Shown here: positions 14,380-16,922 of the stretch, piece after piece | How positions within the stretch are numbered: the first letter of the stretch is position 1 | Layout: each line of letters begins with the position of its first letter | Virus record (IMG/VR): IMGVR_UViG_3300006875_000119 | Coordinates: 1-27,488 of that record | Origin: a virus | Length of the DNA: 27,488 bases | Reading direction: 5' to 3' (one strand) | Program-made: the position numbers and the translations under genes | Notes under the pieces: generated by a model | What the model saw: the letters and a program-made list of their open reading frames with translations, nothing else | The model's database searches: none | Told to the model about the DNA's origin: nothing

Positions 14380-15087
14380 TCAAAATGATGCTTGGTGAAG
14401 ATCAAAAGCTTCAAAAGCTTCTTTAAACAATGGGCGGGCCAAGGAAGATAAGGCTTGAGCATAAGCCTGAATTTCCCATTGACTACTAGCTTCATCTCGC
14501 AATGAAATAAAATGCAATAAAGCTTGCAAGCTGCAGGTCCATGTGAAAGAAGTGTAAGTGGACATAGGCAGGATTCCTCGCGCTTGCTCCTTGCTCACTC
14601 CTAGCGTCAGGAGAGCCCTGTAAGCCTGTTTAGCCTGTTCTAATGCCTTGGCATATTCAATCATTGCCACTTGATTCATAGCAGGCTCCAGGGGGCCACT
14701 GGAGGCTTGTTTATTGTTTGAGCTTTGATAACGAAAACCTCGCGGCATATAAGACACTTCATCATCGGCTTCGCAATAGCGAAAGCTTTTTTCATTCCAG
14801 CCAAGTGTATCGTTAGCAAATGTTCCACCAATTACATGCTTCCACCATTGCCGACAAACATAAAGTGGAGCTTTCACTTGCCATTTTGTAATGACACCAC
14901 GAAATGGACTGGTGTGCTTGTGTTGCACTAAATAATTAAGCAGCTTTTGGTCTTTTTCAGACCATTCACTACTCGTTTGATCAAAACTTTGACGGGCGTC
15001 ACAAACAATATCCAAAGAGCTTCCCATCCAATCAATGAGACGCACAAAGCTAATGCCATCCATTAGCGGATCAATTTTGGTCATCAT
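14380..15087 (-). CDS. thyX: Flavin-dependent thymidylate synthase (ThyX), variant signature
   Basis: 235 residues. It makes dTMP from dUMP using FAD and methylene-tetrahydrofolate. Conserved parts: ARQSF (31-35), HTSPFRG (58-64), RQWWKH (79-84), WNEKSFRY (97-104) and RGILPMSTYTSFTWTCSLQA with LLHFISLRD near the C-terminus. The usual RHRxxSxNExSxRY motif is altered: KHV replaces RHR and about eight residues are inserted before WNE. I believe some phage ThyX proteins share this longer form. The start overlaps the stop of the membrane-protein gene upstream (15084-15087). Co-transcribed with DUF3310. Confidence 0.85.
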   Translation of the reverse strand: MMTKIDPLMDGISFVRLIDWMGSSLDIVCDARQSFDQTSSEWSEKDQKLLNYLVQHKHTSPFRGVITKWQVKAPLYVCRQWWKHVIGGTFANDTLGWNEKSFRYCEADDEVSYMPRGFRYQSSNNKQASSGPLEPAMNQVAMIEYAKALEQAKQAYRALLTLGVSKEQARGILPMSTYTSFTWTCSLQALLHFISLRDEASSQWEIQAYAQALSSLARPLFKEAFEAFDLHQASF

Positions 15088-15630: not shown

Positions 15631-16005
15631 ATGAACACCTTCTCTATTCCCATTGGCTTAAAATACAATGGTCAAGATTGTATTGGCGTTATGGGGCCTT
15701 TTGAACGCAGCATGGAACGGGACTTTGCTCTCGTTGCCAATAAAAAAGCCCTAAGCGAATGCGGCGATATTGAGAAGCTACGGGAAGTGGCTTGCACAAT
15801 GATGGAAGGCTGGAGCAACATGCAGGAAGCCGTCACTGCCCTAGTAAAAGAGAATCTTGAACTGCGTCAAGCCATGCAAATGCAGCAGTGTGATCTTGAA
15901 GCCGCTGATGCGTTGCTAGGCGAAGCCGGAGAGGCTATTAAGACGCTTGCAGAAAAGCAGCAATCCGCTCAAGCCAAAAAAAATCTTTGGCCGTTTGGCT
16001 GGTAA
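15631..16005 (+). CDS. Unknown coiled-coil protein
   Basis: 124 residues. N-terminal part (TFSIPIGLKYNGQDCIGVMG) is beta-like; residues 45-115 are a long helix or coiled coil (MQEAVTALVKENLELRQAMQ), ending KKNLWPFGW. Family not recognised. It is an isolated + gene between reverse blocks. TAAACG 22 nt upstream fits the -10-like series. Its 3' end overlaps the convergent nuclease gene by 68 nt, unusually long. Confidence 0.6.
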   Translation: MNTFSIPIGLKYNGQDCIGVMGPFERSMERDFALVANKKALSECGDIEKLREVACTMMEGWSNMQEAVTALVKENLELRQAMQMQQCDLEAADALLGEAGEAIKTLAEKQQSAQAKKNLWPFGW

Positions 16006-16300
16006 GAAGAAACACTTTCCATCCACCCATCATTGCCAAATTGAATTTACGAGCATCACGCTCATAACCTGAGCCAGTTACGTGACGGCCACGATTAAAT
16101 GTGCCACCTTGTATCTCAATAAGAGAATGTGAAGACAAATGAGCGAAGTCTGCCCTGTAACGTTTTGAACGCTTGCTTTTTGCATAGCGCTCTTGAAAAT
16201 CAGATTCCCAGGTTGATACGTCGCTGAATTCCCTGGTCAATGGAAGGTCAGGGAAATGCGCTTGCCATAGTTCTAAGAACTGATCTTCAAGAGCGCTCAC
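15938..16300 (-). CDS. PD-(D/E)XK-type endonuclease
   Basis: 120 residues starting at GTG, 3 nt after the deaminase-homolog stop; no ATG is available nearby. Core: YRADFAHLS (Asp51), LIEIQGGTFNRGRHVTGSGY (Glu62-x-Gln64) and YERDARKFNLAMMGGWKVF. This matches a common phage endonuclease pattern (D...E-x-(E/Q/K)GG, GRHxxGxG, then a helix and 'GW.V..lT'). Known relatives are predicted single-domain nucleases, perhaps for recombination intermediates. The 3' end overlaps the convergent 124-residue gene by 68 nt. Confidence 0.75.
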   Translation of the reverse strand: MSALEDQFLELWQAHFPDLPLTREFSDVSTWESDFQERYAKSKRSKRYRADFAHLSSHSLIEIQGGTFNRGRHVTGSGYERDARKFNLAMMGGWKVFLLTSQTAKDFFWLERIAAFLQAS

Positions 16301-16303
16301 TAA

Positions 16304-16888
16304 TTAGACAGCAGCAAACGCTACGTTAGCGCCTTGATTTTGATATTTTCCATCGCCATAGTCTTGAGCTGAGTCGGAATTAAGACGCAAGAACATAACT
16401 TGGACGATGCCCTCGTTTGCGTACACGCGCACGGGGAAAGCCAAAGGATTGACAATAGAGATAGTAAGGTGACCACTCCAGCCAGGCTCAATCGGGCACA
16501 CGTTAAGAATGGTTCCTTGTCGAGCATATGTGCTCTTGCCGTCTGTGATCCCCATTATGTTAGGCGGCATTGTCAAGAGTTCCACACTCACGCCAAGAGC
16601 ATAAGAAAACGGCGGAAGGACGAAGAACATGGAGCCATTCTGCTCAACAGGCGTTGCCTCATACATCAGCTCTTTGTTGAAGGCCTTCACATCCAACGCT
16701 TCAATGGGAGCATTGTTATTGATGACCATAAAGCCCTTTGGGGAAAGGCTCAAATCATATCCAGCATGGCTCAAGCCGTATGAGAGGGCTTTGGTGCCGT
16801 TGGGAAGCTCCCTGGTTTTCTCTGCGACGAAAGGAAAAATAAGATCATTTTCAGCAAGAATGCTGATTTCCTTGTCATTAAGAAGCAT
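16304..16888 (-). CDS. dCTP deaminase homolog lacking the catalytic glutamate
   Basis: 194 residues, full family length. Shared motifs: SYGLSHAGYDLSLS (36-49), ITDGKSTYARQGT (114-126), NVCPIEPGWSGHLTISIVNP (129-148) and VYANEGIVQVMF (155-166). In the family, the strand after 'W.GH' reads (V/I)TLE, with Glu (E138 of E. coli Dcd) activating water. Here the aligned residue is Ser144 (codon TCT). The protein may be a dUTPase-like or otherwise altered family member, or catalytically dead. The ATG follows the T-run of the terminator at 16898-16922, so it needs its own transcript start or readthrough. Followed after 3 nt by the nuclease gene. Confidence 0.82.
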   Translation of the reverse strand: MLLNDKEISILAENDLIFPFVAEKTRELPNGTKALSYGLSHAGYDLSLSPKGFMVINNNAPIEALDVKAFNKELMYEATPVEQNGSMFFVLPPFSYALGVSVELLTMPPNIMGITDGKSTYARQGTILNVCPIEPGWSGHLTISIVNPLAFPVRVYANEGIVQVMFLRLNSDSAQDYGDGKYQNQGANVAFAAV

Positions 16889-16897
16889 GGTTCTGGA

Positions 16898-16922
16898 AAA
16901 AGAAAAGGGCTCTTAAGAGCCC
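16898..16922 (-). terminator. Intrinsic terminator (16-nt perfect palindrome)
   Basis: GGGCTCTTAAGAGCCC (16907-16922) is followed on the - strand by TTTTCTTTTT. It ends the recombination operon. The next reverse gene starts at 16888, about 10 nt further. Confidence 0.8.

Follow-up and report, generated by a model that had tools for sequence, protein, structure and literature searches.

The window, a virus record of 27.5 kb (27,488 nucleotides), carries a gene with the fold of dCTP deaminase (Dcd) near thyX, a thymidylate synthase gene (Table 1). The original prediction had placed a dCTP deaminase homolog at this locus. Its coordinates were right, but the strand needed correction, as the gene lies on the minus strand. 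No open reading frame begins on the plus strand at 16304; the minus-strand reading of 16888-16304 gives a protein of 194 amino acids, and its start and N-terminus (MLLNDKEIS) are kept among its relatives.

Table 1. Genes, motifs, and residues discussed in the text, with their positions in the window.
Feature	Positions	Strand	Remark
DCD-fold gene	16304..16888	-	194 aa; ATG at 16888, stop at 16304
His41, codon CAT	16766..16768	-	His/Gln in 131/131 Glu-less homologs
Motif I, A42-G-Y-D45	16754..16765	-	Residue 42 small in every Glu-less homolog (131/131)
Motif II, G117-K-S119-T-Y-A-R123	16520..16540	-	S119/R123 equivalent to S111/R115 in E. coli Dcd; invariant
Glu134 of IEPGW	16487..16489	-	Where E. 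coli Dcd and dUTPases have the motif III Asp; invariant in clade
Ser144, codon TCT	16457..16459	-	Aligned to catalytic Glu138 in E. coli Dcd; one of Cys/Ser/His/Asn in clade members
thyX (FAD-dependent thymidylate synthase)	14380..15087	-	Consumer of dUMP; near DCD-fold gene in 65/67 related loci
Small protein gene	15938..16300	-	Between DCD-fold gene and thyX; phrog_503 match
Palindrome with the sequence that follows it	16922..16897	-	Terminator-like

A perfect 16-base palindrome (GGGCTCTTAAGAGCCC), followed by TTTTCTTTTT, resembles a terminator and ends 8 bases ahead of the ATG of the DCD-fold gene. No clear Shine-Dalgarno sequence was seen between this palindrome and the start codon.

Every profile library used (Pfam, NCBIfam, and PHROGs) labels the gene "dCTP deaminase." The protein matches Pfam DCD above its cut-off (6.4e-20), scores 72.2 bits with PF22769 (cut-off 27) and 107.3 bits with NCBIfam TIGR02274 dCTP_deam (cut-off 92.8), and matches PHROG 1663 at 1.2e-44. 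An AlphaFold2 model built from 75 window and IMG/VR sequences (pLDDT 93.9, pTM 0.89) adopts the Dcd fold, and the structure prediction that had been proposed as a check thus agrees with the family assignment. The nearest solved structure found by Foldseek is 4dhk (E 1.1e-16, TM 0.83/0.93). In order of similarity, the model resembles dCTP deaminases (4dhk, 3km3), then bifunctional dCTP deaminase-dUTPases (DCD-DUT), and then two entries titled dUTPase. By sequence and fold, the gene is a genuine dCTP deaminase homolog. A reading as an anti-phage defense deaminase was rejected after a PADLOC search for such an enzyme returned no match.

The Glu138 residue of E. coli Dcd is the established catalytic residue of the dCTP deaminase family. 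In the window protein, Ser144 pairs gaplessly with this Glu138 (sequence from the K-12 record) and with the corresponding Glu of the solved enzymes 4dhk (Burkholderia) and 3km3 (Anaplasma). The predicted substitution is thus borne out, and the sequence alignments place no Glu at the catalytic position. The protein is 34%-38% identical to dCTP deaminases of the 4dhk/3km3 type (TIGR02274, PF22769), aligns with them without gaps around the site, and shares with them the motifs SYGLS..GYD, GKSTYAR, NV.P.EP.W.G, and NEGI; both GKSTYAR and the YANEGI noted earlier are present. In contrast to these enzymes, it has Ser in place of the catalytic Glu, His (His/Gln across the clade) in place of Ser at position 41, and Ala in place of Tyr/Phe at position 42.

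Four IMG/VR scans and a GenBank phage search yielded 157 distinct phage homologs. The Glu is absent in 131 of these and is kept in all 26 others, which include proteins from Anabaena, Nostoc, Mastigocladus, and Cylindrospermopsis phages, Thermus phage phiLo, phiKZ, 201phi2-1, N4-like phages, and a Sulfolobus virus. All 80 bacterial homologs likewise keep it. Among the 131 Glu-less proteins, residue 144 is Cys (84), Ser (25), His (17), or Asn (5), and is never an inert residue (no Ala, Gly, or hydrophobic residue). The codons used at this position are TGY, TCY, AGY, CAY, and AAY. Sequencing error, frameshift, or chance as the source of Ser144 can be ruled out, since the 131 distinct homologs without Glu come from environmental and cultured phages alike. 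A search for relatives sharing the Ser had been suggested as a check, and it revealed this clade, in which the 25 Ser-bearing members include a protein of the cultured Synechococcus phage S-CBS4.

A maximum-likelihood tree, computed with columns 41, 42, and 144 left out, separates the Glu-less proteins from all others by one branch (support 91/63) and requires one change. The Glu-less state of the phage clade has a single origin. Inside the clade, position 144 has switched about seven more times, always among Cys, Ser, His, and Asn. Where this residue is Ser, both TCY and AGY codons are used, and therefore Ser arose more than once.

Two phage records deserve separate mention. One IMG/VR contig of 106,734 bases has two DCD genes, a Glu-less one and one with Glu, at 98413-98901 and 60160-60552 (the contig is that of L035; the Glu-bearing protein is L092); the assembly may have fused two phages, or one phage may have both enzymes. 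In the dCTP deaminase of Aphanizomenon phage CL131 (MG209611; L081), an intein separates the GKSTYAR motif from the strand that bears the Glu, as already published (PMC6293099).

Loss of the Glu is accompanied by changes elsewhere in the active site. Residue 41 is His or Gln in all Glu-less proteins (Gln in 62 of the 131) and in no Glu-bearing homolog, and is Ser in 80/80 bacterial proteins, so that the two changes are perfectly associated; His144 occurs only together with Gln41. At position 42, all 131 Glu-less proteins have Ala, Ser, or Cys, whereas 79/80 bacterial Dcd proteins have Tyr or Phe. This residue alone is not diagnostic because E. coli Dcd and N4-like phages also have Ala there. 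Residue 116 differs completely between the Glu-less and the Glu-bearing homologs, yet it varies inside the clade: 110 of the 131 members have Asp or Glu, the S-CBS4 group has Trp, and other members have Gln, Lys, or Ser. A compensating acid at position 116 was therefore rejected as not universal in the clade.

The remainder of the active site is strictly conserved. All 131 Glu-less proteins share S119, R123, E134, W137, G139, N147, E159, Q163, Y177, G180, Y182, and Q183 without exception, and thus the S..R motif expected of a dCTP deaminase (S111/R115) is present throughout, whereas the catalytic Glu occurs in 0/131. Across 1025 pairs, the median pairwise dN/dS is 0.13, and for pairs with the window it is 0.10; the DCD-fold gene is present in 13/13 large genomes searched. 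Given the invariance of the rest of the active site and a dN/dS of about 0.1, the Glu-less protein is a working protein, in agreement with the original view that it is not simply dead.

The early-gene neighborhood of the window is that of Synechococcus phage S-CBS4. Shared are a RecA-family ATPase/helicase, a Sak annealing protein, an exonuclease, the DCD-fold gene, a phrog_503 protein, thyX, and a lysozyme. The S-CBS4 protein, gp073 (annotated dcd), has Ser at the catalytic position like the window protein and lies near exo, thy1, and the RecA-family ATPase; it differs in having Gln41 and Trp116 and is 49.5% identical. The phrog_503 protein of the window, judged by eye from its sequence (IEIQGG...GRHVTGSGYERDARK), looks nuclease-like. 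The ThyX of the window has ∼8 extra residues within its signature motif (RQWWKHVIGGTFANDTLGWNEKSFRY), for which we took RHRxxSxNExSxRY as the standard of comparison. This insert is normal for the phage group because the same insert is found in 65/67 related loci.

Both thyX and ribonucleotide reductase genes are present in 13/13 large genomes searched; in S-CBS4, the ribonucleotide reductase is followed by a protein that weakly matches the class I small chain. No separate trimeric dUTPase was found in the 13 large genomes, and no dimeric dUTPase, MazG, or ThyA-type synthase (PF00303) was found in 16 related genomes. A separate dUTPase was likewise not found in phages with the Glu-bearing protein. 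Its absence therefore fits a dUTPase function of the Glu-less protein, but is no proof of one and does not discriminate between readings. Outside the phages, the genomes behind L311, L315, L317, L323, L344, and L363 (several cyanobacterial, two of Thermus kin) encode a Glu-bearing Dcd and have no PF00692 match, although some of these assemblies may be incomplete. With no PF00303 match, that is, no homolog of ThyA-type hydroxymethylases, in the 16 related genomes, a modified-pyrimidine pathway was rejected, and the suggested role in one is unsupported.

Dcd-fold dUTPases without the Glu are already known in archaea. The two dUTPase-titled structures retrieved with the model are 9ln0 ("dUTPase P45," a thermostable enzyme) and 8y1w ("Thermococcus pacificus dUTPase complexed with dUMP"); we take P45 to be the Pyrococcus furiosus protein described below. 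Where the Glu would stand, each has Met (LTLMLYN, LTLMLFN), and the S..R motif is kept in both. PMC5122711, citing Hogrefe 2002, describes the P. furiosus protein annotated as dCTP deaminase as an efficient dUTPase without deaminase activity. Like the phage gene, the archaeal P45-type dUTPases bear the name dCTP deaminase in databases. The window protein resembles P45 (9ln0, 9ln3) and the T. pacificus enzyme in having the Dcd fold without the deaminase Glu, the S..R motif, and the AGYDL motif I. In contrast to the phage clade, the P45-type proteins have Met rather than Cys, Ser, His, or Asn, have Asp rather than Glu in motif III, keep the Arg of motif IV (GERFVQ), and form a separate lineage. 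A grouping of the P45-type proteins with the Glu-less proteins of cyanophages was rejected (p-AU 0.021), although this value is marginal and the branches are long. The two Glu losses therefore look independent, with moderate evidence given the long branches.

The bifunctional dCTP deaminase-dUTPases of M. jannaschii, M. tuberculosis, and B. halodurans have the same fold as the window protein, but the wild-type sequences examined (4a6a/2qxx, 4xjc) keep the Glu. Dcd-fold proteins need not lose the Glu to have dUTPase activity, since the SIRV5 protein and the B. halodurans DCD-DUT retain it. Trimeric dUTPases (PF00692) share the superfamily and the fold, and E. coli dUTPase (Dut) has Ser at the place equivalent to 144 (LMISVWN, compared with LTISIVN in the window). 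Unlike them, the window protein has Gly160 in place of the motif IV Arg (NEGIVQ versus GERIAQ), lacks the Gly-rich C-terminal lid of motif V (its C-terminus is DGKYQNQGANVAFAAV), and scores 17.5 with PF00692, below the Pfam gathering cut-off of 22. The S-CBS4 gp073 protein scores 22.4, marginally over that cut-off.

The explanation that we favor, with moderate confidence, is that the Glu-less gene encodes a dUTPase derived from Dcd, with dUMP as the product used by the phage ThyX. An ancestor would have lost the catalytic Glu and thereby given up deamination. The protein would bind dUTP in the old dCTP pocket and cleave it to dUMP and pyrophosphate, which would keep uracil out of phage DNA and supply dUMP to the phage's own ThyX. 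The neutral hydrogen-bonding residues at 144 (Cys, Ser, His, or Asn) and 41 (His or Gln) may favor uracil over cytosine or aid the phosphate chemistry. Deaminase activity is presumably lost because Glu138 has an established catalytic role, and dUTP hydrolysis would have been gained or retained because the archaeal Glu-less relatives are dUTPases. The dUTPase step is argued by analogy with P45, the most relevant precedent, and from the neutral residues now found on the base side, where E. coli dUTPase likewise has Ser.

The replacement of Glu by Cys, Ser, His, or Asn in every member of one clade whose remaining active site is invariant favors this explanation, as does the fact that both solved Glu-less Dcd-fold proteins are titled dUTPase. 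Together with PMC5122711, these structures make a dUTPase-like function the best supported of the three suggestions made originally. Several features argue against it: the motif IV Arg is Gly160; motif V is absent, though Dcd-type dUTPases also lack it; Glu134 stands where dUTPases have the catalytic motif III Asp, as it does in the Glu-bearing relatives; P45 has Met rather than a polar residue and belongs to a separate lineage; and the protein falls under the Pfam dUTPase cut-off.

It is unlikely, but conceivable, that the protein binds a nucleotide (dCTP, dUTP, or dTTP) but does not turn it over, and that it serves as a sensor, sponge, or regulatory subunit, possibly by mixing into host Dcd trimers, since active sites in this family lie between subunits. 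E. coli Dcd E138A was crystallized with dCTP and with dTTP (1xs4 and 2j4q titles; 1xs4 is the dCTP complex), so binding survives loss of the Glu. The binding residues are invariant in the 131 homologs, and staphylococcal phage dUTPases are known signaling proteins (PMC5593958). The sensor role raised in the original prediction may apply. The reasoning given there, in which kept binding motifs speak against a dead enzyme, does not discriminate among these readings, since P45 keeps the S..R motif without the Glu. The confinement of residue 144 to Cys, Ser, His, and Asn despite about seven interchanges, with E134, R123, and S119 kept, suggests chemistry beyond binding. Mixed trimers are unlikely at an identity to bacterial Dcd of 45% or less, and no partner gene is known.

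We give a rather low probability to the possibility that the protein is still a deaminase, acting on dCTP or another cytosine nucleotide, in which Cys, Ser, His, or Asn at 144 substitutes for the Glu with the help of His/Gln41 or Asp/Glu116. The complete separation of Glu-less from Glu-bearing homologs by residues 41 and 116, the acid at 116 in most of the clade, and the location of the gene in the thymidylate pathway with thyX are consistent with such an activity. However, position 116 is inconstant, the Gln found at 41 in nearly half of the clade has no acid-base power, E. coli Dcd has Asp116 in addition to its Glu, and the 16 genomes have no ThyA-type base-modification synthase. Similarly doubtful is an activity or nucleotide-signal role unlike that of either dCTP deaminases or dUTPases, for example on another pyrimidine nucleotide or in control of the host dNTP pool, for a phage branch in which the polar set at 144 is coupled to His/Gln41. 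Finally, a decaying deaminase gene without function would account for the lost catalytic residue, but this reading is refuted by the low dN/dS, the 131 intact distinct homologs with an unbroken invariant core, and the presence of the gene in all 13 large genomes.

The name dCTP deaminase is probably wrong for the Glu-less lineage. The S-CBS4 gene is called simply dCTP deaminase in PMC6293099, and in the literature searched we found no description of a phage-wide, apparently independent Glu-less version with Cys, Ser, His, or Asn at 144 and His or Gln at 41. A widespread phage gene carries the name of an enzyme yet lacks the residue that enables its reaction. If the protein is a dUTPase, the thymidylate route inferred for these phages shifts to dUTP in place of dCTP. 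The phage clade would then join the archaeal P45 enzymes as a second and apparently independent example of a deaminase becoming a dUTPase by losing one Glu. With a gene from a cultured phage, such a second case would allow direct tests of how activity evolved in this superfamily.
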